From Alishewanella agri BL06 (GTDB lineage: Bacteria > Pseudomonadota > Gammaproteobacteria > Enterobacterales > Alteromonadaceae), in NCBI RefSeq assembly GCF_000272005.1, contig NZ_AKKU01000011.1, positions 248,001-312,000 on the forward strand: a stretch of 64,000 nucleotides of DNA, given 5' to 3'. How positions within the stretch are numbered: position 1 is the stretch's first letter; each line of letters opens with the position of its first letter. Positions 27,757 to 44,900 of this stretch are shown here, piece after piece. The notes below the pieces were generated by a model. That model made no database searches. It was not told the DNA's origin and worked only from the letters and a program-made list of their open reading frames with translations. The translations under genes and the position numbers were made by a program.

Positions 27757-27757
27757 A

Positions 27758-28093
27758 CTACACCTCGCCTTTAAGTATCCGGGTTAACTGCTTTAACTCC
27801 GCCTTTTCCGCTGCGGTAAGGCTCTCTTTTTCATTCTTCGCATAGGCTAGTAGCAAGTAGATAACCTCAGCCGTAGCTAAAAAATAGATCACTCTGGCGC
27901 TACTACTTTTACCTTGGTTATCCGTTGCCATTCTAACCTTTCGTAGCCCGCCGGTACCGGCGATCAAATCGCCTTTCGTCGGCTGAGCTATCAGTTCTTC
28001 CTGTAGCGCCCTTAACTCGTCATCGGTAGCAAGTTGCTTTATCTGCTTAGTAAAGAGAGTTGTTTCAATAAACTCGATAGCATGCCATGCCAC
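27758..28093 (-). CDS. HigB/RelE-superfamily toxin
   Basis: A 111-residue toxin of the HigB2-like RelE superfamily, which cleaves mRNA on the ribosome. Segments seen: IEFIETTLFTKQIKQL, IAGTGGLRKVRMA, ARVIYFLATAEVIYLLLAYAKNEKESLT and the closing AEKAELKQLTRIL. Toxin-first order with the Xre antitoxin directly behind is the HigBA arrangement. The start is a GTG at 28093 with AGGAGG seven bases upstream. The pair marks the left side of the accessory island. Confidence 0.85.
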   Translation of the reverse strand: MAWHAIEFIETTLFTKQIKQLATDDELRALQEELIAQPTKGDLIAGTGGLRKVRMATDNQGKSSSARVIYFLATAEVIYLLLAYAKNEKESLTAAEKAELKQLTRILKGEV

Positions 28094-28117
28094 GACCTAC
28101 CTCCTTGCAAGTCAAAC

Positions 28118-28136
28118 AAGGTACATAGTACACCTT
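28118..28136. promoter_or_regulatory. Candidate operator of the HigBA-like module
   Basis: An imperfect palindrome, AAGGTAC-ATA-GTACACCTT on the plus strand with core GTAC-ATA-GTAC, lies 25 bases upstream of the toxin start. This is where the antitoxin or toxin-antitoxin complex usually binds. Confidence 0.45.
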
Positions 28137-28934
28137 TCGAGCCGGAATTCCAGAAAAATTCAAAAGCCCCCTCAGGATCTAACTCGGGGTATAGCATTAA
28201 CTGACGCTACTCGACCAGAGTTACTCGCTAATATCAGAGTTATCCCAATCATTGGCGCTAGCCGCACTCTTTGTCATTACACGATCCCTCGACTCCGGTA
28301 TGCTTGCGTACCGGAGTCGGTCCTGCGATAGTGGGTTAGAAGCCTTGGGCGTGGTATGTAAACAATTCAGTTGTGAAGTAATGCTGCTTTGTGCCAATTG
28401 CAGACAATTAACTATACAGGCATTAAAGTCCGTTTTTAGGAGTAAGCCGATATTCATTCGTGATGCTTTGAGGTAAAAGTTTTAATCAGGCTGAAACCAC
28501 TCAGATCTGAGTAGCTGATAAAAAATTCTGGGCTATTTCCCCGTCACCAAACTGGTAAATATTGGTAAATTAAGGACGCTGTGCCTGAAAATATTGTGTT
28601 TTGATAAGATTAACGACATTCGTTCAAGGTCTGGGCTTTTAATTAACCCGCTTAACTTATCTCTCAACATAGGTGATCTCATAGAAATTTTACGAAATTT
28701 AGATAACCTGAATTATCAATTACGCGGCCATTTTTTCGTGCAATGGATATCCAAAGGTATTTATCAAAAACGCGACGTCTAAAAGCGTCAGGATTGTCAT
28801 TGAAGTATAAAAATGCATCGGTATTTTCAAAATGGCTTAAGGTGTCCAGCGCACTGGAACTGCTAGAAACAAAAGATGGTCGCGACTTGTTACGAAAAGA
28901 GATTTCAGCCAAAGATTTGCGGTCGGAAACGCTC
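28137..28934. other. Gene-poor stretch at the left side of the island
   Basis: About 800 bases without a convincing gene. It contains an 11-bp perfect inverted repeat at 28290-28319 (CGACTCCGGTA / TACCGGAGTCG, 8-base loop) with no U-tract. Short plus-strand frames at 28594-28782 and 28743-28991 lie in different phases and lack ribosome sites; they could be a frameshifted relic. The base composition is clearly AT-richer than the rsgA region. Confidence 0.5.
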
Positions 28935-29570
28935 TCAAAAGAGCTTATTTCCGATCAATTCGAGTCCATAAACCCCAAGGCTGGAGAGTAACGCTATTGT
29001 AATCATCAATAGTCCAACCGCTCTCGTCCCCCAAAATCCTGTATCGAAAGTCAAACCTTCTATTGGTTGTAACAACTTCCCCATCGACTGATTAGCCGAC
29101 ATTACTAATATGGGAAAGATGAGTGAAAAGAGAAAAAATATCCAAAGCAAGCTATCAAAATCCAACATCAGATTCAGTAGTGTGACAGCCAGTAAAACGC
29201 CGATCATCGCCCGACAGAGCGATGAAAAAAAAGCCACAATTGGATTCAACAACTTTTGCTTAACGAAGCCGGCAACACGCTCATTGGTGCCAAAAACTAA
29301 CCGACAGCAAGATACAAGCAAGAAAAGTAATGCCACACTATAAACTATGGTAGTTGGCGCAAAATGCTCCAGCGGTGCTAGCCTAATCTGTCGTGACAAA
29401 CTGAAATCACTCCCCACAAGGTTATTGATCATAGCCGCAATACCTAAGGATTCAGCTATATAAGCAATAGCAAAGCACGCAAACGTAAATAGGATAAAAG
29501 AGAGGTAATTCCACTTGTGTGTTTTATATTCAATTCTCAAAGCGTCAGCGACTTCGGCAAATTTAGTCAT
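28935..29570 (-). CDS. Multi-span membrane protein coupled to an HNH nuclease
   Basis: A 211-residue protein with about five hydrophobic segments: residues 25-45, 75-95, 115-135, 140-157 and 182-203. Short polar linkers separate them. No family was recognised. I chose the ATG at 29570, which overlaps the HNH gene stop by 8 bases (ATGACTAA) and has GGAGG directly before it, so translation is tightly coupled. A protein with no enzymatic motif made together with a glycine-zipper nuclease suggests a membrane partner, immunity or anchoring role, which is inference only. Confidence 0.7.
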   Translation of the reverse strand: MTKFAEVADALRIEYKTHKWNYLSFILFTFACFAIAYIAESLGIAAMINNLVGSDFSLSRQIRLAPLEHFAPTTIVYSVALLFLLVSCCRLVFGTNERVAGFVKQKLLNPIVAFFSSLCRAMIGVLLAVTLLNLMLDFDSLLWIFFLFSLIFPILVMSANQSMGKLLQPIEGLTFDTGFWGTRAVGLLMITIALLSSLGVYGLELIGNKLF

Positions 29571-29985
29571 TGGCACCTCCTACCAAAGAGCCCAGCGAAC
29601 CACCAATGACAATACCCAAAGGGCCAAAGATTGAGCCAAATCCTGCACCCACGGCAAAGCCTGCCAAAGCCCTGCTATTTTGGCGTTGCTCTTTGGCCTT
29701 TTTTGATAGCGGTGCGACTAATAAGCCATGTGGCTTTCTGGCAACCATACTACTGCTATTGCCTTTTTTACGATTACATGGAATGCATGCAGCGTATAGA
29801 TTATTTAGGTGATTAGTCCCCCCTTTGGAAATGGGGATAGAATGATCTATCTCCCACGCGCCCCTCATGCCAATAACACCATAGTTTTTCTTGGCTAATG
29901 TTTTATGGCAAATGTGGCAGCGCGTATTTGTTTTCTCTAGCACCTTAGCTCGAATGTCTTCTGTAAAAGGTATTCTCGTTGTCAT
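29563..29985 (-). CDS. HNH endonuclease with glycine-zipper C-terminus
   Basis: A 140-residue protein in two parts. Residues 15-80 form an HNH domain: CHIC zinc knuckle, EIDHSIPISKGGTNHLNNL (catalytic His and Asn) and a second CIPC knuckle. The last 40 residues are a Gly/Ala-rich hydrophobic stretch, GFAVGAGFGSIFGPLGIVIG and onward, of the glycine-zipper type that inserts in membranes. HNH nucleases rarely carry such a tail. It is the middle gene of a three-gene minus-strand unit: DUF1508 gene (27-base gap) and membrane protein (8-base overlap). Beside a type I restriction operon, a defence role is plausible but unproven. Confidence 0.8.
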   Translation of the reverse strand: MTTRIPFTEDIRAKVLEKTNTRCHICHKTLAKKNYGVIGMRGAWEIDHSIPISKGGTNHLNNLYAACIPCNRKKGNSSSMVARKPHGLLVAPLSKKAKEQRQNSRALAGFAVGAGFGSIFGPLGIVIGGSLGSLVGGAND

Positions 29986-30012
29986 TCATAATCTCCGTGA
30001 AAAGCTAGAGCA

Positions 30013-30369
30013 TTACGCTCTAGCCTGTTGAATTGAAAGATCAACGACATTTGCTAATGGTGCATTCCGCTTCACCGAGTCGATGCCATTTTCACGGCCT
30101 TGTTGCGAAACATATAGCTCGCTCGTGCCGATAATCTGGCTGTTGTGCATAGACTTAAGGTTAAAGTAATACTGACCATTATTAGCGGTTAGCCTGAGAT
30201 AATTTGAGTCAAATGGGGAATTCAACTTCACAGAGGCAACACCATTTAGACAATTCTCTTTGGTCGTATAGCCTTCACTGGATAAGATTATCTGGCCATT
30301 TTCCGCTTTGAGGCGAAAATAGTATTGGTTGTTGCTGTTACTTCTAAATACTTCAAATACTGGGTGCAT
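30013..30369 (-). CDS. DUF1508 (YegP-family) protein, two repeats
   Basis: A 118-residue protein with two tandem YegP repeats. The first contains FEVFRSNSNNQYYFRLKAENG and ILSSEGYTTKENCLNGV; the second contains NGQYYFNLKSMHNSQIIGTS and YVSQQGRENGIDSVKRNA. YegP-like proteins are small beta-rich proteins of unknown function. I chose the ATG at 30369; an in-frame codon four residues earlier is possible. It is the first gene of the HNH unit and is preceded by a large stem-loop (30454-30498). Confidence 0.8.
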   Translation of the reverse strand: MHPVFEVFRSNSNNQYYFRLKAENGQIILSSEGYTTKENCLNGVASVKLNSPFDSNYLRLTANNGQYYFNLKSMHNSQIIGTSELYVSQQGRENGIDSVKRNAPLANVVDLSIQQARA

Positions 30370-30453
30370 ACGCACCTCCATAATTAATTAGCGCTGTTAT
30401 TGGCGCAATAAGGTTTAAATTCAGAGGGAAGTATTGAATTGCAAAACAACAGC

Positions 30454-30498
30454 AGATAAGCTCATAAACGAGATGTATATCGGTTTACGAGCTTATCT
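30454..30498. repeat. Long stem-loop upstream of the YegP-HNH unit
   Basis: Perfect 10-base arms, AGATAAGCTC (30454-30463) and GAGCTTATCT (30489-30498), are extended after one mismatch by TAAAC/GTTTA. This gives a stem of about 16 positions over 45 bases. It lies about 85 bases before the YegP start. No U-tract follows on either strand, so it is more like an operator, structured RNA or mobile-element end than a terminator. Confidence 0.55.
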
Positions 30499-30570
30499 AA
30501 AGGGCTAATCACTCAAAGCTCAGCCTGCATCAAACCATCTGCCAATGGTCTAGTGCATGTTTCACAAAAA

Positions 30571-30600
30571 AGGCATTGGTTTTACCCAATGCCTATTTTT
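30571..30600. terminator. Bidirectional intrinsic terminator
   Basis: A nine-base stem, AGGCATTGG / CCAATGCCT, with loop TTTTAC. On the minus strand it is followed by TTTTTT, a strong terminator for the small gene at 30593-30766 whose stop lies inside the stem. On the plus strand ATTTTTCTTT follows. Confidence 0.8.
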
Positions 30601-30766
30601 CTTTGCGCACCCCTTTAAAAGGTGTCTTGTCACTGGTTTTTACATCCATGAATTGCCCGGTATCAGTGTCCCGCTTCACCCAGTGCCCACTTGGGGTTTG
30701 AGTTTGCGAGCGATCTCTCACCGCGCCATGTCTTCTGTTATCACCGGATTTGCCATTTGTCGCCAT
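30593..30766 (-). CDS. Small conserved hypothetical protein
   Basis: A 57-residue basic, hydrophilic protein beginning MATNGKSGDNRRHGAVRDRS, then GHWVKRDTDTGQFMDVKT and ending KGVRKEK. This pattern (GDNRRHGAVRxRSQ ... WVKRDTxTGxFMDVK ... PFKGVRKE) is a recurring small-protein family in proteobacteria; its function is unknown to me. The ATG at 30766 has AGGAGT upstream. It has its own terminator and is divergent from the WYL regulator gene. Confidence 0.7.
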   Translation of the reverse strand: MATNGKSGDNRRHGAVRDRSQTQTPSGHWVKRDTDTGQFMDVKTSDKTPFKGVRKEK

Positions 30767-30915
30767 TTCAGGACTCCTGCATCTGTAGACCAATCACATA
30801 AGCATCACACCATGCGATACTTATTTACTTTATATCTGATCATTTTGATGATGTAAAGTTATAATTTTTGTTTTACTATGTGCTCATTAGAACTATAAAT
30901 TCAGGTAGGAAATGC

Positions 30916-31824
30916 ATGAAAGACATCAGTGAGTTACCTAAGAATGTGCACGACAGGCTTGAGTACCTTGAGTTTATGCTGCGTTTTCGGGGGTGGGTCT
31001 CCCGTGCTGATTTAACCGAACGTTTTGGGTTAGGCGAAGCCGCTGCCACACGAGATATAAGGCTCTACCGTGAGTATGCGGAGCAAAATCTTACGCTGAA
31101 TCAAAAAACGAAGAAGTACGAAATCAACGAAGACACCTTCGAACCTCTTTTTGCTTTTTCTATTCAAAGCGCGTTATCAAAGTTACGCACGACCAAAGTC
31201 GCCGAAGCACTGGGACTTTCCGAGTTTGACGGTGTGATGAGTCCTCCGAGATTAGCCTATCCAACGGTGGATATCTTATCCGCTGTCACCCGTGCGATTT
31301 CCTCTTCAGTAGCGCTTAGAGTAACGTATCATGCTTTGAAAAGCGGTCAATCTGACAAACTTCTATTTCCACTAGCCATATTTGATAACGGCATTCACTG
31401 GTATTTAAGAGCATTTGATCCTGACAAAAATGACAATGAAGATAAGTATCGCGTCTACGCCCTTACACGGTTTGAGTCGGCTGAAATAGAACACGATGTA
31501 CGAGTAAAAGCAGAAGTGAAAAATCAGGATCATCAGTGGAATCGAATGGTAGATCTGGAGCTTGTGCCACATCCAAATCGTAAAAACGTCAAAAAGCCAG
31601 AAACCATTATTCACGATTTCAATATGAAAGACGGCAAATTAAAGATAGCGGTCAGGGCTACGGTAGCAGGCTATTGGCTAAGACATTGGAACGTTGATTG
31701 TACTGAAGATCACAGTCTTGAAGGCTTCCATTATCAGCTATGGCTGAACAATCATCACACGTTATATGGTGTTGAGAGCAGAAGTTTAGCTCCCGGCCTA
31801 TCTGAATATCACGAACAGCATTAA
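30916..31824 (+). CDS. WYL-domain regulator (BrxR/CapW-like)
   Basis: A 302-residue regulator. The N-terminal winged helix (about 12-60) has VSRADLTERFGLGEAAATRDIRLY. A WYL domain (about 125-205) carries LLFPLAIFDNGIHWYLRAFD and YRVYALTRF, followed by a WCX-type C-terminal extension (about 225-300). This three-part layout is that of BrxR/CapW/BrxR-like repressors placed in front of phage-defence operons. The ATG at 30916 has AGGTAGGA upstream. It is first before hsdM (29-base gap) and probably represses the restriction-reverse transcriptase operon until phage or DNA damage is sensed. Confidence 0.85.
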   Translation: MKDISELPKNVHDRLEYLEFMLRFRGWVSRADLTERFGLGEAAATRDIRLYREYAEQNLTLNQKTKKYEINEDTFEPLFAFSIQSALSKLRTTKVAEALGLSEFDGVMSPPRLAYPTVDILSAVTRAISSSVALRVTYHALKSGQSDKLLFPLAIFDNGIHWYLRAFDPDKNDNEDKYRVYALTRFESAEIEHDVRVKAEVKNQDHQWNRMVDLELVPHPNRKNVKKPETIIHDFNMKDGKLKIAVRATVAGYWLRHWNVDCTEDHSLEGFHYQLWLNNHHTLYGVESRSLAPGLSEYHEQH

Positions 31825-31853
31825 TGAGCAGCGACGCTCACGAGGTTTAATCA

Positions 31854-34241
31854 ATGGATCACAGCGTACATAACAAATTAGTGTCTTTCATCTGGTCGAT
31901 TGCCGACGACTGTTTACGCGATGTTTATGTTCGCGGTAAGTACCGGGATGTTATTTTACCAATGGTGGTATTACGTCGTCTCGATACACTGCTCGAAGCA
32001 AGTAAAGAAGCGGTACTTGAGGAAGTTAAGTACCAAAAAGAAGAGATGGAAGCCACTGAGCTGGATGACGAGGCTTTAAAGCATGCGTCTGGACAGGTGT
32101 TCTACAATATTTCGAAATGGACGCTGCAAAGCCTGAAAGATACAGCCACCAATAACCAACAGATCTTGCTGGCTAACTTCGAAGAATACCTCAACGGTTT
32201 CAGTGCCAACGTAAAAGAAATCATTGAGCTATTCGAACTGAAGTCAAAAATCCGCCATATGGCTGGGAAAGATGTACTTTTAGACGTGTTGGAAAAGTTT
32301 GTCTCGCCTTACATCAACCTCACACCTAACCCAGCGGAAGACCCTGAAGGCAATAAACTGCCAGCGCTGACCAACTTGGGCATGGGCTACGTTTTCGAAG
32401 AGCTGATCCGCAAGTTTAATGAAGAAAATAACGAGGAAGCTGGTGAACACTTCACTCCCCGTGAAGTAATAGAGCTGATGACGCACCTTGTGTTTGATCC
32501 AATAAAGGATTCACTACCGCTAACTATCTCTATTTACGACCCCGCATGCGGTAGCGGCGGCATGCTGACTGAATCGCAAAACTTTATTGATGAAAAATAC
32601 CCAGCGTCCAATCGTGATATTTATTTATTCGGTAAAGAAATCAACGACGAGACTTACGCCATCTGTAAGTCCGACATGATGATCAAGGGTAACAACCCGG
32701 AAAACATCAAAGTGGGTTCTACCCTATCAACCGACGAGTTCGCCTCAGATCGATTCGACTTTATGTTATCCAACCCGCCTTATGGCAAAAGCTGGACGTC
32801 AGAGCAGAAGAACATCAAAGATAACGGCGAGATTATTGATCCCCGTTTCAAAGTTGAGCTGAAAGATTACTGGGGTAATAAAGAAACTGCGGATGCTACG
32901 CCACGTTCTAGTGATGGGCAGTTGTTGTTCCTGATGGAAATGGTCAGCAAAATGAAGTCTCCAGATGTTAGCCCTCTGGGTAGCCGTATTGCGTCCGTTC
33001 ATAATGGTTCCAGTTTGTTTACTGGCGATGCAGGTGGTGGTGAGAGCAATATTCGCCGCTTTATCATCGAAAACGATATGCTCGACGCTATTGTGCAATT
33101 ACCTAACAACCTGTTTTACAACACGGGAATTACTACCTACATCTGGCTGTTAAATAACAAGAAGCCGGCCAACCGCAAAGGTAAGGTGCAACTTATCGAC
33201 GCCAGCTTACTATATCGTAAACTGCGTAAGAATCTGGGTAACAAAAACTGTGAATTTGCCCCGGAGCATATCGAAGAAATCACCCGAACTTATCTGGATT
33301 GTGCAGCCATAGAGCGTAAGTTAGACGAGAACAACGACCCTATCGGTATCGCTAGCCAAGTATTCGATAACGGCGACTTTGGCTACTACAAAGTTACGAT
33401 TGAACGGCCTGATCGCCGTAAAGCCAAGTTCACGCCAGAGGCTATTGCATCACTACGTTTCGATAAATCGTTGTCAGAGGTCATGGAGCACTTGTTTGAA
33501 CTGCATGGCGATAAAGTTTATGAAAAAGGCTTCTTAAAAGCCATCAGTAAAGACATCATTGAATGGTGTGATGAAAATGACATCAGTATCAATGCCAAAG
33601 CAAAAGTCAAATTGCTGGATGAAAAATACTGGCAAAAATTGCGTGAAATTTTAGAAGCGGCAGCGCTATTGATGGCGGAGATTGGTTCAGAAGAATTCAA
33701 CGACTTTAACCTTTTTAAAGATAAAGTAGATGCGGTACTTAAACCAAGTAAGTTTAAACTCACAGGCCCAGAAAAAAATGCCATTTTGAATGCCGTTAGC
33801 TGGTACGACGAAAGCGCTGAGAAAGTCGTGAAAAAGGTGGTGAAACTTTCAGGCAGTAAACTGGATGAACTGCTTGACCACCTTGGTTGCAGTAAAGACC
33901 AACTGCCAGACTATGGCTATTACCCTACAGGCAAAGCAGCCGAGTATGTTACCTATGAAGCCAGTACAGATTTACGAGATGCAGAGTCTATCCCCCTAAA
34001 GGATAGTATCTATCGCTACTTCCTCGCCGAAGTGAAGCCGCATGTGGACGAGGCATGGATCAATCTGGACAGTACCAAAATAGGCTACGAGATCAGCTTT
34101 AATAAGTACTTCTATCAGCACAAACCACTTCGTTCACTGGAAGAAGTCGCCAAGGATATTATTGGACTTGAGCAAAAGGCCGAAGGCCTAATAGCACAGA
34201 TTTTAGGAATTGATGTTGCTGACGTTCAGGGAGAGGCCTAA
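31854..34241 (+). CDS. hsdM: Type I restriction-modification, methyltransferase subunit
   Basis: A 795-residue N6-adenine methyltransferase subunit. An HsdM N-terminal helical domain (about 1-150) leads to NEENNEEAGEHFTPREVIELM, SAM-binding DPACGSGGMLTE, and catalytic NPPYGKSW (N/DPPY). It is about 250-300 residues longer than classical HsdM. The extra C-terminal part (about 520-795) is helical and includes GYYPTGKAAEYVTYEASTDL and the conserved tail IGYEISFNKYFYQHKPLRSLEEV seen in long-form HsdM proteins. It shares one base with hsdS (TAATG). It methylates the recognition site for self-protection. Confidence 0.95.
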   Translation: MDHSVHNKLVSFIWSIADDCLRDVYVRGKYRDVILPMVVLRRLDTLLEASKEAVLEEVKYQKEEMEATELDDEALKHASGQVFYNISKWTLQSLKDTATNNQQILLANFEEYLNGFSANVKEIIELFELKSKIRHMAGKDVLLDVLEKFVSPYINLTPNPAEDPEGNKLPALTNLGMGYVFEELIRKFNEENNEEAGEHFTPREVIELMTHLVFDPIKDSLPLTISIYDPACGSGGMLTESQNFIDEKYPASNRDIYLFGKEINDETYAICKSDMMIKGNNPENIKVGSTLSTDEFASDRFDFMLSNPPYGKSWTSEQKNIKDNGEIIDPRFKVELKDYWGNKETADATPRSSDGQLLFLMEMVSKMKSPDVSPLGSRIASVHNGSSLFTGDAGGGESNIRRFIIENDMLDAIVQLPNNLFYNTGITTYIWLLNNKKPANRKGKVQLIDASLLYRKLRKNLGNKNCEFAPEHIEEITRTYLDCAAIERKLDENNDPIGIASQVFDNGDFGYYKVTIERPDRRKAKFTPEAIASLRFDKSLSEVMEHLFELHGDKVYEKGFLKAISKDIIEWCDENDISINAKAKVKLLDEKYWQKLREILEAAALLMAEIGSEEFNDFNLFKDKVDAVLKPSKFKLTGPEKNAILNAVSWYDESAEKVVKKVVKLSGSKLDELLDHLGCSKDQLPDYGYYPTGKAAEYVTYEASTDLRDAESIPLKDSIYRYFLAEVKPHVDEAWINLDSTKIGYEISFNKYFYQHKPLRSLEEVAKDIIGLEQKAEGLIAQILGIDVADVQGEA

Positions 34242-35542
34242 TGGACTCAATGCCTAAATATGCATCTTACAAAGATTCAGGAGTTGAGTGGCTTGGCAAT
34301 ATTCCAAGTGACTGGAATTTAAAGCCCGGATTTGTTGCTTTTACCGAAAATAAACGGAACAACAAAGGGATGAAGGAAAATACTGTTCTGTCCTTAAGTT
34401 ACGGCAAGATAGTTATTAAGCCTGAAGAAAAGCTCGTTGGTCTTGTTCCTGAGTCATTTGAAACTTACCAGTTAGTTGAACCAAATGACATTATTGTCCG
34501 CTGCACCGATCTTCAAAATGATAAAGTAAGTTTGAGAACAGGCTTAGCGAAAGATAACGGTATAATCACAAGTGCTTATCTCAATCTCAAAGTTAGGCGC
34601 GGATTTAACTCTCGCTTTCTGCATTATTACCTGCACTCTCTCGACACTACCAAGGTCATTTACAAATTTGGTTCAGGGTTGAGACAAAACCTGAGTTTTC
34701 TCGATTTCAAACGACTCCCTGTCTTTGATATCTCTGAATCTATTCAAATCGCTGTCGCTGATTATCTTGACCAAAAAACCGCTCAGATTGACGAAGCAAT
34801 TGCCATTAAAGAACAACAAATCGCGCTTTTAAAAGAGCGTAAGCAGATCATTATCCAGCAAGCAGTCACCCAAGGCCTTGATCCCAACGTGCCAATGAAA
34901 GACTCAGGTGTGGAGTGGATTGGCCGTATCCCTAAGCATTGGCACTATGAGCCAATTAAATATTCTTTAAAAGGAATTGTCGATTGTGAACATAAAACTG
35001 CACCATTTGTTGATGAAGAAGAATTTTTTGTTGTAAGAACCACTAATGTAAAGGATGGAAAAATTAACTTAACTGGTGCTAAGTATACCCATGCTAAAGG
35101 TTATAAAGAATGGACTAGACGGGGAATTCCAACTCCCGGTGATATTCTTCTAACAAGGGAGGCTCCAGCGGGCGAGGCGTGTACAGTTCCAGAAGACCTA
35201 AAACTATGTCTTGGCCAAAGAATGGTATGGCTTAAGGTAGATAGAACTAGATTAGTACCTGAATTTGGTGTCGCACTTATATATTCATCAATTGGAAGAA
35301 CATATATTGATTTCCTGTCAGCAGGTTCGACAGTATTGCATTTCAATATGTCAGATATTGCTAATATTCCTGTTGTATTGCCACCACTTGATGAACAAAA
35401 AGCTCTAGTGGAATATATTAATTGTAAATCAGTGGAAATAGAAAACTCGTCAAAGATACTATCACAACAGATTGAAAAACTAAGAGAATACAAAACCACA
35501 CTGATCAATAGTGCTGTTACAGGCAAAATCAAAGTGGCATAA
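34241..35542 (+). CDS. hsdS: Type I restriction-modification, specificity subunit
   Basis: A 433-residue specificity subunit in two halves. Each target-recognition domain is introduced by the same phrase: YKDSGVEWLGNIPSDW near residue 6 and MKDSGVEWIGRIPKHW near residue 219. Each ends in a helical spacer, QKTAQIDEAIAIKEQQIALL and later EIENSSKILSQQIEKLREYK, then AVTQGLD or AVTGKIK. The two domains therefore read a bipartite target that cannot be predicted here. The ATG overlaps the hsdM stop by one base. Confidence 0.93.
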   Translation: MDSMPKYASYKDSGVEWLGNIPSDWNLKPGFVAFTENKRNNKGMKENTVLSLSYGKIVIKPEEKLVGLVPESFETYQLVEPNDIIVRCTDLQNDKVSLRTGLAKDNGIITSAYLNLKVRRGFNSRFLHYYLHSLDTTKVIYKFGSGLRQNLSFLDFKRLPVFDISESIQIAVADYLDQKTAQIDEAIAIKEQQIALLKERKQIIIQQAVTQGLDPNVPMKDSGVEWIGRIPKHWHYEPIKYSLKGIVDCEHKTAPFVDEEEFFVVRTTNVKDGKINLTGAKYTHAKGYKEWTRRGIPTPGDILLTREAPAGEACTVPEDLKLCLGQRMVWLKVDRTRLVPEFGVALIYSSIGRTYIDFLSAGSTVLHFNMSDIANIPVVLPPLDEQKALVEYINCKSVEIENSSKILSQQIEKLREYKTTLINSAVTGKIKVA

Positions 35543-35554
35543 CAAGGAGGTAAG

Positions 35555-38500
35555 ATGGTTAGCCAAACGAATGAACAGGCACTGGAATCGGCTATTGAAA
35601 AGTATCTGACGGGCACGTGCTTGGAAGAGCTAAAAGCTGGCGTGCAGGAAGCCAGCCCCGACTTTAACAATCGGCTTTATCGTATTGGCCAACCATCCGA
35701 CTTTAATATGCAGTTTGCGCTGGATGAGCGATTCTTCTGGGCATTTCTGGAAAAAACACAGGAAGATGAACTCGACAAAGTTAAGCGCAATAACCCCAAT
35801 GACTGGCAGCGCAAAATTTATGAACGTTTTGACAGGCTGATTAAGAAACACGGCATTCTGCATTTGCTTAAAAAAGGCCTAAGCGTCGATGATGCCCACT
35901 TTAACCTGATGTATCCAGCACCATTGGCTAGCAGCAGTGATAAAGTTAAACAACACTTTGCTGCCAACCTGTTTAGCTGTACCCGCCAACTGCGTTACTC
36001 CTTAGCTAACCCACTGCAAGAAATCGACATGGTATTGTTTATCAATGGCATACCATTAATAACGCTGGAGCTTAAAAATGCATGGACAAACCAAACAGCA
36101 CGGTATCATGGCCAAAAACAATATCGTGAAGACAGGGATACCAACCAGCCACTGTTGAACTTTGGCCGCTGCTTGGTGCATATGGCGGTAGATACCGATG
36201 AAGTGTATATGACCACCAAATTGGCAGGAAAAAGCACTTTCTTCTTGCCGTTCAACAAGGGGCACAACTTAGGGCAAGGCAATCCGCCAAACGATAATGG
36301 GCATAAAACAGCTTATTTATGGGAAGAAGTGTTCCAGAAAGAGAGCTTAGCGAACATTATCCAGCATTTCGTCAGACTGGACGGCACCAGCAAAGACCCA
36401 CTGAATAAACGCACTTTGTTCTTCCCTCGTTACCATCAAATGGATGTGGTCAGGCGATTGGTTGGCCATGCCGCTGAGAACGGTGTGGGACAAACTTACC
36501 TAATTCAACACTCAGCAGGCTCAGGTAAATCGAACTCGATTACATGGGCGGCTTACCAGCTAATTGAAACTTACCCTGTTTCCGATAAGGTTCCCGGCAG
36601 CCGTGGCTTGGATCAGCCGTTATTTGATTCTGTTATTGTGGTCACCGACAGACGCCTGTTAGACAAACAGCTTCGCGATAACATCAAAGAGTTTTCTGAG
36701 GTGAAAAACATTGTCGCGCCTGCACACAAATCTTCCGAACTTAAGTCTGCATTGGAAAACGGCAAAAAGATCATCATCACCACCATTCAGAAGTTCCCGT
36801 TCATCATTGATGGCATTGCTGATTTAAGTGACAAGCGGTTTGCGGTGATCATTGACGAGGCGCACAGTTCACAATCTGGTTCCGCTCATGACAATATGAA
36901 CAGAGCAATGGGGCGTGCTGAAGTGGAAGAAGCTGAAGACGCACAAGATAAAATTTTACAGGCCATGAAATCACGCAAAATGCGTGGTAATGCGTCGTAT
37001 CTTGCATTTACAGCGACCCCCAAGAACACAACGTTGGAAAAATTTGGCCAAAGGCAGGCTGACGGCAGCTATAAACCTTTCGATCTGTACTCCATGAAGC
37101 AGGCAATTGAGGAAGGCTTTATCCTTGACGTGTTAGCTAATTACACCACCTATAAAAGCTATTACGAGATTGAAAAGTCCATCGAGGATAACCCGGAGTT
37201 CGATACGAAGAAGGCGCAAAAAAAGCTTAGAGCTTATGTAGAGCGCAGTCAACAGACCATCGATATCAAAGCCGAAATAATGCTGGACCATTTTATCCCG
37301 CACGTGGTAAATGCCAAGAAACTAAAAGGCAAAGCCAAAGGGATGGTGGTCACCCAAAACATTGAAACGGCTATTCGATATTACAAAGCCATCACCCGGA
37401 TTTTGGCTGGGCAAGGCAATCCGTTTAAGGCTGTAATTGCATTTTCTGGCACCAAAGAGGTTGATGGAGTTGAGTATACCGAAGCTGATATAAACGGATT
37501 TTCCGAAGCCGATACCAAAGACAAGTTTGATACCGATGAGTATCGTTTGCTAATTGTGGCCAACAAATACCTGACAGGTTTTGACCAACCGAAACTTTGC
37601 GCTATGTACGTTGATAAAAAGTTGGCCAGTGTACTCTGTGTGCAAACCCTATCCCGGTTAAATCGTGCGGCACCTAAGTGGGGTAAAAAGACGGAAGACC
37701 TTTTTGTGCTGGACTTCTTTAACTCGGTTGACGACATCAAAACCGCATTTGATGATTTTTATACCTCAACCTCTTTATCTGAAGCCACCGATATTAACGT
37801 TTTACACGAACTGAAAGACGAGATGGATGAAGTCGGTGTATACGAATGGATGGAAGTTGAAGAATTCATAAAACGCTATTTCAACGACGAAGATGCACAG
37901 CGGCTTAGTCCGCTCATCGATATTGCCGCAGCACGATTTAACATTGAGCTAGAATTAGAAAATGATGCAAAGGCTGATTTTAAAATCAAAGCCAAGCAAT
38001 TTGTGAAGATTTACGGCCAGATGGCCTCAATCATGCCCTATGAAATAGCCGCATGGGAAAAGCTATTCTGGTTCCTAAAATTCCTCATTCCCAAGCTTAA
38101 AGTGGAAGATCCAGATGCAGAGCTGCTGGATGAGCTGCTGGATTCAGTTGACCTAAGCTCCTATGGCCTCCAGCGCGTTAAACTGGGTCATACAATAGAA
38201 CTGGATAGTGCCGAAACAGAGCTGGACCCGCAGAACCCTAACCCGCGTGGTGCTCATGGCGGTGATAAGCAAAAAGATCCACTAGACGAAATTGTACGAA
38301 GCTTCAACGAGCGCTGGTTCCAAGGCTGGAGCGCAACACCAGAAGAGCAGCGGGTTCGGTTGCTAAGTATGGCCGAGTCAATCAAAGCGCATCCAGATTT
38401 CAAAGATAAGTACCAAAACAATGCCGATCCACATAGCCAGAACCTCGCTTTTGAAAAGCTGTTTAAAGAAATCATGCTACAGCGGCGTAAAGATGATTTG

Positions 38501-38593
38501 GAGTTCTACAAGCTGTTTGCCGGCGATGAAGCATTTAAGTCATCACTAATGCAAAGCATGCAGCGTATTGTTGGTATGTCGGCCTCTAAGTAA
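35555..38593 (+). CDS. hsdR: Type I restriction-modification, endonuclease/translocase subunit
   Basis: A 1012-residue restriction subunit. The N-terminal nuclease has INGIPLITLELKNAW (PD-ExK core) and a Q-motif-like GQKQYREDRD. The SF2 motor has Walker A QHSAGSGKSNSI, VVTDRRLLDKQL, DEAH box IIDEAHSSQSG, FTATPKNTTL, and the later motifs VVTQNIETAI and ANKYLTGFDQP. A helical C-terminus binds HsdM. AAGGAGG precedes the ATG. A type I complex pumps DNA past itself and cuts at a distance. The reverse transcriptase gene follows after 40 bases in the same direction. Confidence 0.95.
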   Translation: MVSQTNEQALESAIEKYLTGTCLEELKAGVQEASPDFNNRLYRIGQPSDFNMQFALDERFFWAFLEKTQEDELDKVKRNNPNDWQRKIYERFDRLIKKHGILHLLKKGLSVDDAHFNLMYPAPLASSSDKVKQHFAANLFSCTRQLRYSLANPLQEIDMVLFINGIPLITLELKNAWTNQTARYHGQKQYREDRDTNQPLLNFGRCLVHMAVDTDEVYMTTKLAGKSTFFLPFNKGHNLGQGNPPNDNGHKTAYLWEEVFQKESLANIIQHFVRLDGTSKDPLNKRTLFFPRYHQMDVVRRLVGHAAENGVGQTYLIQHSAGSGKSNSITWAAYQLIETYPVSDKVPGSRGLDQPLFDSVIVVTDRRLLDKQLRDNIKEFSEVKNIVAPAHKSSELKSALENGKKIIITTIQKFPFIIDGIADLSDKRFAVIIDEAHSSQSGSAHDNMNRAMGRAEVEEAEDAQDKILQAMKSRKMRGNASYLAFTATPKNTTLEKFGQRQADGSYKPFDLYSMKQAIEEGFILDVLANYTTYKSYYEIEKSIEDNPEFDTKKAQKKLRAYVERSQQTIDIKAEIMLDHFIPHVVNAKKLKGKAKGMVVTQNIETAIRYYKAITRILAGQGNPFKAVIAFSGTKEVDGVEYTEADINGFSEADTKDKFDTDEYRLLIVANKYLTGFDQPKLCAMYVDKKLASVLCVQTLSRLNRAAPKWGKKTEDLFVLDFFNSVDDIKTAFDDFYTSTSLSEATDINVLHELKDEMDEVGVYEWMEVEEFIKRYFNDEDAQRLSPLIDIAAARFNIELELENDAKADFKIKAKQFVKIYGQMASIMPYEIAAWEKLFWFLKFLIPKLKVEDPDAELLDELLDSVDLSSYGLQRVKLGHTIELDSAETELDPQNPNPRGAHGGDKQKDPLDEIVRSFNERWFQGWSATPEEQRVRLLSMAESIKAHPDFKDKYQNNADPHSQNLAFEKLFKEIMLQRRKDDLEFYKLFAGDEAFKSSLMQSMQRIVGMSASK

Positions 38594-38633
38594 CAGGTGC
38601 TGGTGTAATCTGATGTGGTAACCGGAGGGTTTA

Positions 38634-40121
38634 GTGACATCAACAGTGAAATTCTTTGAAGATGATTTCGCGGGAACATTATTCCCGCTCAAAACTAACT
38701 TACTTTTAGTGCAGAAACATAGCACTGAAATCTCCGATTACATCTATCAAAAAATTTTAAGTGACTCACATCCCGCGGATAATTTTTTGCCTCAGCAAAG
38801 AGTATTTGCGACGAAGCCACAAGGACATCTGCGTCGAACTGTAAAGCTCGACCCAATAGCGGAATACTTTTTATATGACTTGGTTTATCGAAATCGAGGT
38901 ATTTTTCGTCCAGAGGTAAGTGAGTTTAGAAGGAGCTTTGGCTATCGATTCGAGAAAGGAAAACATATTCCGGTTCACATTGCTTACTCTACATATAAAC
39001 AAGAATTGGCAGAATGCTCTTCCAACTTCAAACACAGTATTCAGTTCGATGTTGCTTCGTATTTTAACAGCATGTATCACCATGATGTCGCTCACTGGTT
39101 TGAAAGTAAAAGCGGTGTAACATCTGTCGATTCTAAAGCTCTTGCCCAATTTTTTAGAGAAATAAATTCAGGGAGAAGTATCGATTTTATGCCGCACGGC
39201 ATATACCCAGCAAAGATGATTGGAAATGAGTTTTTAAAATTCATTGATCTTTATGGTCCTCTAAAGTCTAAGAAAATCGTTAGATTTATGGACGATATTA
39301 CCCTTTTCGACAATGATAGAAATGTCTTGATGGCAGATTTCCATGTGATACAGAGACTATTAGGACAGTTCGCTCTCAACGTAAATCCATCGAAAACTGC
39401 CTTTGACCACTCTGTGGGTGACGTAAAAGCAACATTGTCAGAAATTAGAGAATCGTTAAAGGAAATCATTACTGAATATGAAGAAGTGCCAACAGCATCA
39501 GGCGTAGAAGTTGAAGAGCTTGATGTAGAAATTGAGAATACATTAAGTACGCAACAAGTTGATGCTTTGCTAGAGCTACTACAAAGGGATTCCCTTGAGG
39601 AGTCAGATGCTGACCGTATCCTAAGCTTTCTGAGAACTCATAGTGATAGTTTGATCGAGTACTTACCAATTTTGTTTCGCCGATTCCCAAATCTAATCAA
39701 GCATATTCACTCTGTCTGTGGAGAAGTAAAGGAGAAAGCAGAACTATCCAATGTGCTTCTAGATTATCTGAATGAGTCGAACGACTTTTTGGAGTACCAG
39801 TTATTCTGGATTGGAGCGATAGTCGAAGACTATTTGATTGGTCATGGCAGCTATGGAAGTGTATTACTCAGGCTTTACGAACTTACAGCAAATATGAAGA
39901 TCGCAAGAGCAAAAATTCTTGAGATCCCTGTCCAAGACTTTGGTTTCAAGGAAATTCGAGGGGAATATCTTAAAACTGGCCAATCTGATTGGCTCTCATG
40001 GTCATCTGCGATTGGGACACAAAGCTTAAAGCCTGCCGAGCGTAACTACTTGCTGGCATATTTTGCTAAAGCATCAGCGATGAATTTTTTAATTTCTGAG
40101 GGAGTCAAAAAGTGCACGTAA
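38634..40121 (+). CDS. UG/Abi-type reverse transcriptase in a type I R-M operon
   Basis: A 495-residue reverse transcriptase. Fingers begin at TVKLDPIAEYFLYDLVYRN. Motif A is QFDVASYFNSMYHHD with the first Asp, motif B is PHGIYPAKMIGNEFL (His-Gly, not the usual Gln-Gly), motif C is VRFMDDITLF (FMDD), and motif D-E region is NVNPSKTAF. All catalytic Asp residues are present. After an acidic linker (about 285-305) comes a 190-residue helical domain, as in Abi and defence-associated (DRT) enzymes. It lacks group II maturase parts and a retron-type RNA was not seen. The GTG start at 38634 has GGAGG seven bases upstream. Family subgroup could not be assigned. Confidence 0.85.
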   Translation: MTSTVKFFEDDFAGTLFPLKTNLLLVQKHSTEISDYIYQKILSDSHPADNFLPQQRVFATKPQGHLRRTVKLDPIAEYFLYDLVYRNRGIFRPEVSEFRRSFGYRFEKGKHIPVHIAYSTYKQELAECSSNFKHSIQFDVASYFNSMYHHDVAHWFESKSGVTSVDSKALAQFFREINSGRSIDFMPHGIYPAKMIGNEFLKFIDLYGPLKSKKIVRFMDDITLFDNDRNVLMADFHVIQRLLGQFALNVNPSKTAFDHSVGDVKATLSEIRESLKEIITEYEEVPTASGVEVEELDVEIENTLSTQQVDALLELLQRDSLEESDADRILSFLRTHSDSLIEYLPILFRRFPNLIKHIHSVCGEVKEKAELSNVLLDYLNESNDFLEYQLFWIGAIVEDYLIGHGSYGSVLLRLYELTANMKIARAKILEIPVQDFGFKEIRGEYLKTGQSDWLSWSSAIGTQSLKPAERNYLLAYFAKASAMNFLISEGVKKCT

Positions 40122-40195
40122 TTGTCGGTGTCCATCGAGTTGAATTTACCCTAGGGAAAAGAAGATCCAAAAACGACATCGGCTTAATGTCATAA
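40112..40195 (+). CDS. Candidate 27-residue ORF overlapping the reverse transcriptase
   Basis: GTG to TAA, overlapping the reverse transcriptase stop by 10 bases, with AGGGAG seven bases upstream. It encodes VHVIVGVHRVEFTLGKRRSK and seven more residues. The overlap and ribosome site look like translational coupling. It is either a real micro-ORF or the stump of a third gene cut off at the island edge. A terminator follows within 10 bases. Confidence 0.35.
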   Translation: MHVIVGVHRVEFTLGKRRSKNDIGLMS

Positions 40196-40203
40196 ACGTA
40201 CAA

Positions 40204-40230
40204 TAAAAAACCGCCCTAAGGCGGTTTTTA
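40204..40230. terminator. Bidirectional terminator, reverse transcriptase / gcvP
   Basis: A perfect stem, AAAACCGCC / GGCGGTTTT, with loop CTAA and T-runs on both strands. It ends the plus-strand defence operon and the minus-strand gcvTHP operon. Confidence 0.9.
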
Positions 40231-40246
40231 TTAAAGTTACAATTCC

Positions 40247-40303
40247 CAGTCGCAAAGTTAATTGCAGTCGCAGACATAATTAATTCTGGTCGCAGAGTTA
40301 ATT
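40247..40303. repeat. Three short tandem repeats at the right island edge
   Basis: Imperfect copies of GTCGCAgAGTTAATT: CAGTCGCAAAGTTAATT (40247), CAGTCGCAGACATAATTAATT (40265) and CTGGTCGCAGAGTTAATT (40286). They lie between the terminator and the gcvP stop. Confidence 0.6.
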
Positions 40304-40327
40304 ACGCTGCACATTACGCAGTAAACC

Positions 40328-43219
40328 TTACCGGTAAGCCTCCGGGCTTGGGCATGAACACATCAGGTTGCGGTCGCCGTACACGTCGTCGATACGGGTA
40401 ACCGTTGGCCAGAACTTGTTTTCTGCCACAAACTGCGCCGGGAAGGCGGCGTAGGTGCGCTCGTAGGCGCGATCCCAGCTTGGGTCCAGAATGTCGGCCA
40501 TAGTATGTGGTGCATAAGCCAGTGGGTTGTTATCCACTGTCCACTCGCCGGCTTCTACCTTGGCAATTTCCGCACGGATGGTCGTCATCGCTTCGATAAA
40601 CTTATCCAGCTCAGCTTTGCTTTCTGATTCGGTTGGTTCAATCATTAGCGTGCCGGCTACCGGGAAGCTCATGGTTGGTGAGTGGTAACCAAAGTCCATT
40701 AAGCGCTTGGCGATATCCATCTCGGTAATACCGCTGGCTTCTTTTAATGGCCGAATATCGATAATACATTCGTGCGCCACGCGGCCATGGGTACCGACAT
40801 ACAGCACCGGGAAGTGCGGGTTCAGTTTCTTGGCAACGTAGTTCGCGTTCAGGATCGCGAATTCAGTGGCTTGTTTTAAGCCTTCGCTACCCATCATCGC
40901 GATATACATCCAGCTGATTGGCAGAATACCGGCGCTACCAAAAGGTGCTGCCGATACTGCGCCATTACTGGCGCCGGTGCCGTCGATTTTTACGACCGCA
41001 TGGTTAGGTAAAAACGGCGCTAAATGGCTCTTCACGCCGATTGGGCCCATACCCGGGCCACCACCGCCGTGCGGGATACAGAAGGTTTTGTGCAGGTTTA
41101 GGTGCGATACGTCTGAGCCGATAAAGCCTGGCGAGGTTAAGCCCACCTGCGCGTTCATATTGGCACCGTCCATATACACCTGGCCGCCGTAGGAGTGGAT
41201 CACTTCACACAGCTCGGCGATGGTTTCTTCAAATACACCGTGCGTAGACGGGTAAGTCACCATAATGGCTGCTAAGCGATCACCGACTTCGGCTGCTTTG
41301 GCTTTTAAGTCGGCCATATCGATATTGCCTGACTTATCGCAGTCTACCAGCACAACTTCGTAGTTGGTCATGGCCGCAGTAGCCGGGTTAGTACCGTGCG
41401 CCGATACCGGAATTAAACAGATATTACGATGGCCTTCGCCACGGCTTTCGTGGTACTTACGAATGGCCACCATACCGGCGTATTCGCCCTGCGCGCCTGA
41501 GTTTGGCTGCATCGAGATATTGTCGTAGCCAGTGATATTCACCAGCCAGTCGCCAAGCTCGTTAATCATCTGGTAGTAACCTTCGGCCTGATCACGTGGC
41601 ACGAACGGGTGCAGAGACGCGAACTCTGGCCAGGTGATCGGGATCATCTCGGCGGTGGCGTTCAGTTTCATCGTGCATGAACCTAACGAAATCATCGAGT
41701 GGTTCAATGCTAAGTCTTTGTTTTCCAGCTTTTTGATATAACGCAGTATCTCAGTTTCGCTGTGATACTGGTTAAATACCGGATGGCTTAATACGGCAGA
41801 GGTGCGTACTAAATCGGCCGGGATAGAGGTAGAGCCATTAGCAACGATCTGTGCATCTAAGGCGTTAACGTCTAAACCATGGCCGGCACCTAATACGATA
41901 TCAAACAGCTGTGCGATATCCCCAGCCTGCGTGGCTTCGCTAAAGCTTACCGCCAGGCTATCAGCCACGTCCGTACGCAGGTTAACACCGGCTGCTAAAG
42001 CGCGGGCAACAACGGCAGCGCGATCGGCAACTTTAAAGGTCACTGTATCAAACCAGTGGCTATTCACCAGGGCAACGCCTTTGGCTTTTAAACCAGCAGC
42101 GAAGATATCGGCGCTGCGGTGAATGCGCCCGGCGATATCTTTTAAGCCTTGCGGGCCATGGTACACCGCATAGAAAGAGGCGATATTGGCCAGTAATACC
42201 TGAGCAGTACAGATGTTCGAGTTCGCTTTTTCACGGCGGATATGCTGCTCACGGGTTTGCATTGCCATCCGCAGTGCCTGATTGCCACGGCGATCTTTTG
42301 ATACACCGATAATGCGGCCCGGCATAGAGCGCTTATAGGCATCGCGGGTCGCGAAGAAGGCAGCGTGTGGGCCACCAAAGGCCATTGGCACACCAAAGCG
42401 CTGCATAGAGCCTAATACGACATCGGCACCCAGCTCGCCCGGTGCTTTTAACAGCATTAACGCCATTGGGTCTGTTGCTACCGCAACAATGGCTTTTTTC
42501 GCCTGCAGCGCGGCAATTAAGGCGCTGTCGTTACGGATATCACCGTTAGTGGTTGGGTACTGTAATAAGGCACCGAATACGTCCTGCTCAGCCGCTTCGT
42601 TGGCTTTACCCACCACAATATCAAAACCAAACATTTCGGCGCGGGTTTTTACCACGTCGATAGTTTGTGGGTGCACGTCGTCAGCAATAAAGTACAGGTT
42701 AGACTTGCTCTTGGTGACGCGCTTGGCCAGGGCCATGGCTTCGGCAGCAGCAGTTGCTTCGTCCAGCAGCGAGGCGCTGGCCAGTTCCATACCAGTTAAG
42801 TCTAAAGATAACTGTTGGAAGTTTAACAGCGACTCTAAACGGCCCTGGGCAATTTCCGGCTGGTATGGCGTGTACGCGGTGTACCAGCCCGGGTTTTCCA
42901 GCACGTTACGTAAAATAACATGCGGGGTCAGTGTTGGGTGGTAACCCATACCAATGTAAGACTTATACATTTTATTTTTTGACGCAGCAGCCTTTAAATA
43001 CGCCAGGGCGTCTACTTCAGTGCGGCTGTCGCCAATGGCCAAAGGTTTTGGCAGGCGAATGCTCTGCGGCACGGTTTGCGCAATCAGCTGCTCGATGCTG
43101 TCTACGCCAAGTTCCTGCAGCATAGCAGCTGTTTCGGCAGCATCCGGGCCAATATGGCGCTGGATAAATTCGTCGTGTTTCGCAAGTTGCGTCAGGGTTT
43201 TCACAGCGGTATGGGTCAT
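40328..43219 (-). CDS. gcvP: Glycine decarboxylase (P protein)
   Basis: A 963-residue PLP enzyme of the glycine cleavage system. It decarboxylates glycine and passes the aminomethyl group to the lipoyl arm of GcvH. Seen: FIQRHIGP near the start, and in the second half [25 protein letters not shown] with the Schiff-base Lys. The last residues include [12 protein letters not shown], typical of bacterial P proteins. The fused alpha-beta form is full length. I chose the ATG at 43219, with AGGA 8 bases upstream; ATGs at 43225 and 43249 are in frame. It is third in gcvT-gcvH-gcvP, after a hairpin at 43250-43274. Confidence 0.97.
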
Positions 43220-43249
43220 GCTCATTATCCTGGTAGTGCTTTCTAACAT

Positions 43250-43274
43250 AAAGCCCCGTTATCTACGGGGCTTT
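43250..43274 (-). terminator. Hairpin between gcvH and gcvP
   Basis: A 10-bp stem, AAAGCCCCGT / ACGGGGCTTT, with loop TATCT. On the minus strand TTTATGTT follows, a weak U-tract. It lies 24 bases after the gcvH stop and 30 before gcvP, so it may be a partial terminator or stabiliser that sets gcvH above gcvP expression. Confidence 0.55.
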
Positions 43275-43298
43275 AGGGTGGCAGGATCTGCCGTAATA

Positions 43299-43688
43299 TT
43301 AAGCTTCGTCAATCGCGCTCTGATAACCGGCGGCGTCTAACAGGGCGCCGAGCTCAGCTTCGTCTGCGATTTTAATTTTAAACATCCAGCCATCTTCGTA
43401 CGGGCTGCTGTTTACCAGCTCTGGCGAGTCGCTCAGGGCATCGTTTACGGCAACAATTTCACCTGAAACCGGCGCATAAATATCTGACGCCGCTTTTACT
43501 GATTCCGCAACGGCGCAATCGTCGCCCTGGCCTACCGTTTCGCCCACTTCCGGTAATTCTACGAATACCATATCACCCAGTAATTCCTGAGCGTGCTCAG
43601 TGATACCTACGGTGTAGATGCCATCGCCTTCAGCGCGCAGCCATTCGTGACTGGATGCGTATTTTAAGTTTGCAGGAATGTTGCTCAT
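43299..43688 (-). CDS. gcvH: Glycine cleavage system H protein
   Basis: A 129-residue lipoyl carrier that shuttles the aminomethyl intermediate between GcvP, GcvT and the L protein. The lipoylation site is in [20 protein letters not shown], with Lys near residue 65. N- and C-terminal signatures are [14 protein letters not shown] and [12 protein letters not shown]. Length matches E. coli GcvH. It is second in the gcvTHP operon, with a 132-base spacer from gcvT and a hairpin-bearing gap to gcvP. Confidence 0.97.
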
Positions 43689-43716
43689 TGTAAGTTCCTT
43701 AGCTGTGTGTTCTTGC

Positions 43717-43752
43717 CACCTGCCGCCCTGTTAGCACAGGCACAGCCAGGTG
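43717..43752 (-). repeat. Stem-loop in the gcvT-gcvH spacer
   Basis: Arms CACCTG/CAGGTG enclose a second stem CCTGT/ACAGG, with internal loops, inside a spacer unusually long for this operon. On the minus strand it lies about 30-60 bases before the gcvH start. It could protect or modulate the gcvH message. No aptamer of the glycine riboswitch class was recognised. Confidence 0.4.
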
Positions 43753-43820
43753 AAGCCTCTCTGGTCTTTCCGGCAGCAGGCCGGCATCGTTATTGTATTA
43801 TTCTTGGCCAGCTATAAAGC

Positions 43821-44900
43821 TTAGACCAGTTTTTTACCCATGCGCACAAAGGCCGGTTTTACTACTTTTACCGGTACCAGTTTACCGCGAATATCCACTT
43901 CTGCGGTATCGCCGGTCGCGGCAGGTACCCGCGCCATCGCAATACTAAAGCCCAGTGTCGGCGAGAAAGTACCAGAGGTAATTTCACCTTCACCGGCGGC
44001 AGTAATCACTTTCTGACCATGGCGCAATACCCCTTTTTGCTCCATCACCAAACCCACCAGCTTAGCGGTGCCGGCGGCTTTGGCCTGCTCCAGCGCGGTG
44101 CGGCCGATAAAGTTACGATCGCCAGGCTCCCAGGCAATGGTCCAGCCCATATTGGCGGCCAGTGGTGATACCGTTTCGTCCATATCCTGACCGTACAGGT
44201 TCATACCGGCTTCTAAGCGCAGGGTGTCGCGGGCGCCTAAACCACTGGGTTTTACGCCGGCAGTTACCAGCTGTTGCCAGAAGTCTGCCGCCTGCTCGTT
44301 TGGCAGCGCAATTTCGTAACCGTCTTCACCGGTATAACCGGTGGTAGCGATAAACAAGTTACCCGCCTGCACGCCAAAAAATGGCTTCATGCCGGCGACG
44401 GCCGCTTGCTGCTCCGCCGTTAATAAGGTTGCCACCTTGGCTTTGGCATTCGGGCCCTGCACGGCAATCATCGCAAATTCCGGACGCTCGGTTACCGTAA
44501 CATTAAAGGCTTTGGCTTCAGCGTTGATATGGGCTAAGTCTTTTTCGCGGGTGGCAGAGTTCACTACTAAGCGGAAGAAATCTTCTTGCAGGAAGTACAC
44601 AATTAAATCGTCAATGACGCCGCCGGTGCTGTTTAACATGCCGCTGTACAGGGCTTTGCCGGGGGTGGTGAGTTTGGCAACGTCGTTGGCTAATAAATAA
44701 CGCAGGAAGTTACGGGTATTGGCACCGGTTAAATCAACAATGGTCATATGCGACACATCAAACATGCCGGCATCCTGACGGACGGCGTGGTGTTCTTCAA
44801 TCTGAGAGCCGTAGTTAATTGGCATTTCCCAGCCGAAGAAATCGACCATTTTCGCACCTGCAGCCAGATGGCTGGCGTGTAACGCGGTTTTTTGAGCCAT
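43821..44900 (-). CDS. gcvT: Aminomethyltransferase (T protein)
   Basis: A 359-residue enzyme that transfers the methylene from lipoyl-GcvH to tetrahydrofolate and frees ammonia. Seen: [31 protein letters not shown] (folate-site Asp), the [17 protein letters not shown] motif, [12 protein letters not shown], and [20 protein letters not shown]. Length matches the family. It is first in the gcvTHP operon. The 150 bases upstream were checked for a glycine riboswitch and none was evident. Confidence 0.97.

Follow-up and report, generated by a model that had tools for sequence, protein, structure and literature searches.

A 64,000-nucleotide stretch of the Alishewanella agri BL06 genome (contig NZ_AKKU01000011.1, positions 248,001 to 312,000), here called the window, carries a type I restriction operon whose last gene encodes a defence-associated reverse transcriptase (DRT) of the Drt5 family. 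The genes lie on one strand in the tightly packed order WYL-hsdM-hsdS-hsdR-drt5 (Table 1). A preliminary description of this DNA, made from its letters, had placed a reverse transcriptase (RT) open reading frame (ORF) 40 bases after hsdR at the end of a WYL-hsdMSR run, which ORF coordinates and family matches confirm; the span that it gave, 38634..40195, is right at its start and runs 74 bases past the ORF stop at 40121. The 40-base gap that follows the hsdR stop at 38593 contains an apparent ribosome-binding site, CCGGAGGG, recognized by eye just before the drt5 start. No terminator-like site between hsdR and drt5 was listed by the scan, and the nearest forward promoter-like site upstream of drt5 is at 37938-37966 (9/12); the region contains 15 such sites, below the mean of 24 in shuffles. 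Downstream of drt5 lies the convergent core gene gcvP. The hairpin between the two genes is absent from the list of a pattern scanner for terminators; the segment that holds it (40122-40235) folds at -28 kcal/mol, with a z score of -2.79. The start of the WYL gene is an ATG picked by eye, as the listed ORF begins at 30868 (TTG). The restriction system appears intact because HsdM and HsdR retain motif strings that are characteristic of these subunits.

Table 1. Genes and signals of the WYL-hsd-drt5 operon (positions in the window)
Feature	Position	Strand	Size	Basis
WYL-domain regulator	30916..31824	+	302 aa	Pfam WYL, 38.6 bits (cut-off 21.8)
HsdM, type I DNA methyltransferase	31854..34241	+	795 aa	N6_Mtase (1e-57), HsdM_N; DPACGSG and NPPY
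HsdS, specificity subunit	34241..35542	+	433 aa	PADLOC Specificity_I (3.8e-112); Methylase_S
HsdR, type I restriction/translocase subunit	35555..38593	+	1012 aa	HSDR_N, SWI2_SNF2, T1R_D3-like; AGSGKS, DEAH, EIDMVLF...ELK
Drt5 (UG16) defence-associated RT	38634..40121	+	495 aa	NF041750; GTG start, TAA stop
Likely intrinsic terminator between drt5 and gcvP	40206..40229	+		10-bp stem, 4-base loop, T tract in 3' arm

Guanine-plus-cytosine fractions are 0.39 in drt5, 0.39-0.45 in the WYL and hsd genes and 0.53-0.56 in neighbouring core genes; the WYL-hsd-drt5 island is foreign by composition. Among 31 genomes of the genus (E 1e-60), no other member has an HsdR above 49% identity, and Drt5 is matched in only one, the window's own. 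Drt5 exceeds its cut-off in 1/394 genomes of the order and 1/398 of the phylum, in both cases the window's own genome; sub-cut-off matches alone occur in 52/394 and 30/398 genomes, respectively, and were set aside as presumably other RTs. No Drt5 match was found among 50,697 phage records. An empty insertion site could not be defined, as the window aligned in eight same-genus flanks up to the end of gcvP and beyond it only in short pieces.

Identity and predicted fold of the reverse transcriptase

The RT scores 689.1 bits against the NCBIfam Drt5 model NF041750, for which the curated equivalog cut-off is 550, and the match spans profile positions 1-484 of 484. PADLOC assigns it to Drt5 (PDLC02181) at 729 bits, with Drt8 as the next subgroup at 94.7 bits; the Abi enzymes (AbiK, AbiA, Abi-P2) are distant in sequence, with AbiA at 28.5 and AbiP2 at 28.2 bits. 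The Drt5 match is thus far above chance. Drt5 corresponds to UG16, or DRT type 5, in the part of PMC7699616 that was available. The preliminary description had recognized a UG/Abi-type RT without assigning a subgroup; its RT identity stands, and profile search now supplies the subgroup. The catalytic site that it had called intact is indeed present: the protein has FDVASYF, motif B PHGIYPAKMIGNEFL and RFMDD, and catalytic residues D139, D220 and D221 are invariant in all 43 rows of an alignment (A3) that includes the window sequence, as are R217, P187, G189, Y191 and K194. RVT_1 is the sole Pfam domain over cut-off in the 495-aa protein, and Pfam finds no nitrilase or phosphohydrolase domain, the mark of class 3 DRTs. 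A retron RT model scores 18.8, far below its cut-off of 235. A sequence search of the PDB with the single window protein returned no match, and a profile search with alignment A3 yielded three RT sequences at E < 0.001. In its full-length match, its RT motifs and its apparent lack of a fused effector domain, the protein is like the rest of the Drt5 family, from which only its place at the end of a type I hsd operon sets it apart. By sequence, the gene is an intact copy of a known defence RT in an unusual position; antiphage activity is credited to Drt5 at family level in the accessible passages of PMC7699616, PMC13213688 and PMC13314766.

An AlphaFold2 model of the protein (predicted local distance difference test score 81.4, predicted template modelling score 0.80) comprises a predicted RT core at ~1-260, a low-confidence hairpin linker at ~276-301 and an all-helical C-terminal domain at ~306-492, which bears out the helical domain noted previously. 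The model aligns over nearly its full length with DRT6, DRT4 and AbiK. With DRT4 (UG15) and DRT6 it has in common a two-part fold over 430-435 aligned residues at ~13-14% identity, and the predicted order of RT core and helical domain matches that of DRT4/DRT6-like single-gene DRTs. DRT4 and DRT6 are of different families from Drt5, and untemplated synthesis is reported for DRT4 and not for Drt5 in the portion of PMC13213688 consulted, where DRT4 and DRT6 are described as single-gene systems. According to the available parts of PMC13213688 and PMC13314766, DRT4 makes random single-stranded DNA without a template, a phage DNA-binding protein shields the product, and DRT6 is activated by the same phage protein.

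DRT1 and other class 3 DRTs are also defence RTs, and their defining nitrilase or phosphohydrolase domains (PMC13275509, in its accessible text) are those absent from the window protein. That source (2026) describes protein-primed, template-free synthesis by "DRT5S/DRT5L", which it treats as class 3 and which probably are the short and long forms of UG5. The result is not used here as evidence on Drt5/UG16 because the window protein lacks class 3 domains; if "DRT5S/DRT5L" did mean UG16, it would directly favour a template-free route. Two candidate kinds of priming residue in the window protein were considered and dropped. S289, in the low-confidence linker, is invariant in the 43 A3 rows and only nearly so in a second alignment (A2), in which Roseobacter plasmid copies lack the stretch that contains it. 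Tyrosines Y36, Y81, Y104, Y148, Y191 and Y476 are all invariant in A3. No primer is named because several tyrosines match S289 in this respect.

An RNA partner was sought by comparing up to 250 bases on each side of drt5 at 19 loci, including the window; one of these (L012) has only ~110 bases upstream, and another (L015) is a partial copy with a coding upstream piece. No conserved flanking sequence was found on the plus strand at E 0.01, other than in one pair of near-identical plasmids (L074/L075), and Rfam gave no match over 27000-44000 of the window. Neither search pointed to a retron-type msr-msd RNA beside the RT gene. These nulls argue against a non-coding RNA template, although one inside the coding sequence or from elsewhere might be missed. 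Repeats common to the Drt5 flanks and the rest of their own locus occur at L003, L008 and L073 only (17 loci). An integron-cassette origin of the window gene was rejected because no attC-like pair occurs there among the 19 loci tested; such a pair is found in the upstream flank of L006 only, with a weaker one downstream of L008, and shuffled flanks gave an attC-like match in 8/1520 cases. The L006 site, 60 bases long (GCCTAAC...GTTAGAC), suggests an integron cassette at that locus, and at L012 and L013 small ORFs on one strand form cassette-like runs.

Contexts of Drt5 and of related restriction operons

Outside the window, 22 Drt5 loci were compared: genome contigs L002-L015, Escherichia coli L072 (which represents 7/5426 E. 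coli genomes with a nucleotide match), plasmids L073-L075 (drawn from four matching records in 72,556) and viral contigs L151-L154. At least 5 kb of upstream sequence is available for 13 of them (L002, L004, L006, L008, L009, L010, L011, L072, L073, L075, L152, L153 and L154), and Drt5 lies behind type I hsd genes at just one, L004. On this contig of a Zixiibacteriota metagenome-assembled genome, hsdM, hsdS, hsdR, PIN, AbiH, an unnamed ORF and NYN are followed on the same strand, after 30 bases, by Drt5. Its HsdR is of a distant type, 24% identical to that of the window. A tree was built from 44 Drt5 proteins, with L004 represented by P0037 (493/494 residues identical, start residue excluded). 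The window and L004 proteins are sisters in 0% of 200 bootstrap trees; random pairs give the same non-sister count (500/500 shuffles), so this shows separateness only and not significance, and most P rows of the tree lack known gene context.

Searches with HsdM, HsdS and HsdR of the window found no match at E 0.001 in the other 21 Drt5 loci, although distant hsd genes might escape such a search. An N6_Mtase gene (E 1e-15) occurs on the Drt5 contig in 2/21 records searched (L072 left out), a lower bound because contigs are short: G753, which is L004, and a Providencia genome (G760) in which the gene is ~15 kb upstream of Drt5. In E. coli L072, where Drt5 adjoins a MobQ relaxase, annotation has no hsd gene within ~10 kb. 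Plasmid L075 was considered as a type I operon and rejected: a gene with an HsdR N-terminal domain ends ~3.4 kb upstream of Drt5, but it is HSDR_N_2 with STAND/NACHT, and the plasmid has no N6_Mtase. HerA-type and SIR2 genes are next to Drt5 on the Roseobacter plasmids; at L009 its neighbours are a WYL gene and a gene with a weak match to DUF3584, and at L010 a protein kinase gene. The divergent plasmid copies (~41-42% identical) directly follow a HerA-type ATPase gene (L074:331-3627; L075:6573-11455, with SIR2 also in L075), which is a possible recurrent pairing. Some draft-assembly copies have an internal stop (L003, L005) or match in two pieces (L013), through either decay or assembly error.

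The restriction genes were also followed in the opposite direction. HsdR proteins 68-85% identical over nearly their full length occur in ten other genomes of the 394-genome order sample, none of which has Drt5 over cut-off anywhere; five of these ten matches have a stop count of one, which does not distinguish a stop inside the gene from one at its end. Twelve related hsd places were compared, from nine of the ten genomes and three annotated records (L134-L141, L106, L131, L132 and L133); the tenth genome, G370, was omitted since it has the same coordinates as L132, a Vibrio gigantis record, and L142 (HsdR 41-43%), also without Drt5, was excluded as too distant. Drt5 has no match at E 0.001 at any of the 12 places. 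The slot after hsdR can be judged at ten of them, as L106 and L141 end within ~300 bases of that gene. WYL relatives precede the operon in L132 (39% identity) and L135 (45% over 152 aa, a contig-end copy).

Other genes occupy these operons. Between hsdS and hsdR are DUF4268 genes (L131-L133 by annotation; L134, L135 and L137 by Pfam, with a PADLOC match to PDC-S11 in L134), GmrSD-type genes (L134, L136, L137), Fic (L106) and RhuM (L141). Between hsdM and hsdS, L140 has an AlbA_2/HATPase protein that PADLOC also scores as like a prokaryotic Argonaute. After hsdR, L132 and L135 have a weak HATPase match that falls below the Pfam cut-off, and a helix-turn-helix gene comes next in L132. In L134 the slot holds an unnamed 362-aa ORF, with an MkoA-like gene three ORFs further along. 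Elsewhere it holds AAA_15 at 139 bases past hsdR in L138, an unnamed 331-aa ORF with a 4-base overlap with hsdR in L139, an unnamed 163-aa ORF in L137 and transposase pieces in L131, L133 and L136. Over 130 bases past the hsdR stop, compared by eye, the window is unlike all 12 places, and L131, L132, L133 and L135 have common sequence among themselves. This HsdMSR operon type has cargo slots between M and S, between S and R and after R, which hold different genes in different hosts, ATPase and Schlafen-like genes among them, and it is headed by a WYL gene in the window, L132 and L135 at least.

Two further small gene groups lie on the reverse strand of the window. At 28935-29985, an HNH endonuclease gene overlaps a 213-aa hydrophobic ORF without a Pfam match, possibly as a small defence pair. 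At 27472-28093, two adjacent small genes score 36.4 bits against RelE toxin (cut-off 27) and 37.3 against HTH_3 (cut-off 23) and are likely a toxin-antitoxin pair.

Cargo of the operon or partner of restriction

Because related operons carry other, interchangeable defence genes, the association of Drt5 with hsd genes has the look of a passenger gene in an operon and not of a new machine. We consider it likely that Drt5 is a swap-in gene behind hsdR of a horizontally acquired, WYL-headed type I operon and that it encodes a self-sufficient abortive-infection enzyme. This reading draws directly on the family identity, the conserved active site, the gene order and spacing, the exchange of cargo and the occurrence of Drt5 in unrelated contexts. 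In such an arrangement, transcripts begun at the hsd promoter would read through into drt5, which would hence share the control of the WYL gene. The enzyme would work alone, as an oligomer of RT and helical domains that needs no RNA template to make DNA, and may be restrained until a phage factor stabilizes or releases what it makes; such behaviour is reported for DRT4. The operon would then provide two independent layers, with restriction cutting unmodified DNA first and Drt5 arresting the cell if phage escapes. We lean slightly towards a DRT4-like route of untemplated synthesis as the best guess because of the fold match and the lack of any RNA sign.

The preliminary description had proposed an inducible composite unit of regulator, restriction enzyme and RT. 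Its possible inducibility is suggested by the WYL gene. As an obligate pair the unit is rejected on co-occurrence, with hsd genes ahead of Drt5 at 1/13 other loci that have at least 5 kb upstream and Drt5 in 0/12 related operons; homologs mostly outside type I operons (12/13) are the pattern that the description had named as refuting it. The RT may also belong to a class that acts alone, which the description had likewise named: DRT type 5 is listed with a single RT component in the available text of PMC7699616.

Looser forms of coupling deserve weighing. PrrC-type genes are, likewise, second-line defence genes in hsd operons; PrrC is physically linked to HsdMSR and fires upon anti-restriction. 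PrrC is a nuclease, whereas Drt5 is a polymerase that is associated with the window operon by gene position alone. A guard of this kind, in which HsdMSR or its DNA products restrain Drt5 until a phage anti-restriction protein disables restriction, would suit the tail position 40 bases past hsdR and the second tail-end Drt5 in the hsd-containing run of L004. We judge it decidedly improbable, as 12 of the 13 other loci lack upstream hsd genes, all 12 related operons lack Drt5, and a common contact surface is unlikely at only 24% identity between the HsdR proteins of L004 and the window. It is likewise improbable that the operon is a WYL-controlled dock with fixed slots for interchangeable back-up genes in which a tail-end Drt5 is coupled to restriction, for example by being primed by restriction fragments or released when an anti-restriction protein binds HsdMSR. 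Chance placement in a defence island, with a promoter of its own inside hsdR and no joint control, agrees with the varied neighbours of Drt5 elsewhere (MobQ relaxase, HerA-type, SIR2, WYL, weak DUF3584, protein kinase). This too seems unlikely given the common strand, the short gap without a listed terminator-like site, and promoter-like sites that are rarer than in shuffles, the nearest being that at 37938-37966.

Several points weigh against the cargo reading. The arrangement in L004 fits coupling as well as chance and keeps a looser functional link of Drt5 to type I restriction possible. The transcription, antiphage action and biochemistry proposed for the window Drt5 are predictions. A shared fold does not prove a shared product, and untemplated synthesis is carried over by analogy from DRT4 at ~13-14% identity; the structural aligner, run as a whole-model search only, warns that residues past 393 are scarcely tested by its list. 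The DRT5 mechanism is listed as not established in the accessible text of two 2026 reviews (PMC13213688, PMC13314766).

A thin literature search found no paper on a defence RT within a type I restriction operon, and absence from print is not claimed. The broader pattern, in which one kind of type I operon carries exchangeable defence genes, is of more interest than Drt5 itself. Since Drt5 is a defence RT that was listed in 2026 without an established mechanism, the locus is useful: it is a natural two-layer test case in which restriction and Drt5 are apparently under one regulator. If coupling between cargo and restriction were true, it would help to explain why such genes gather inside hsd operons.
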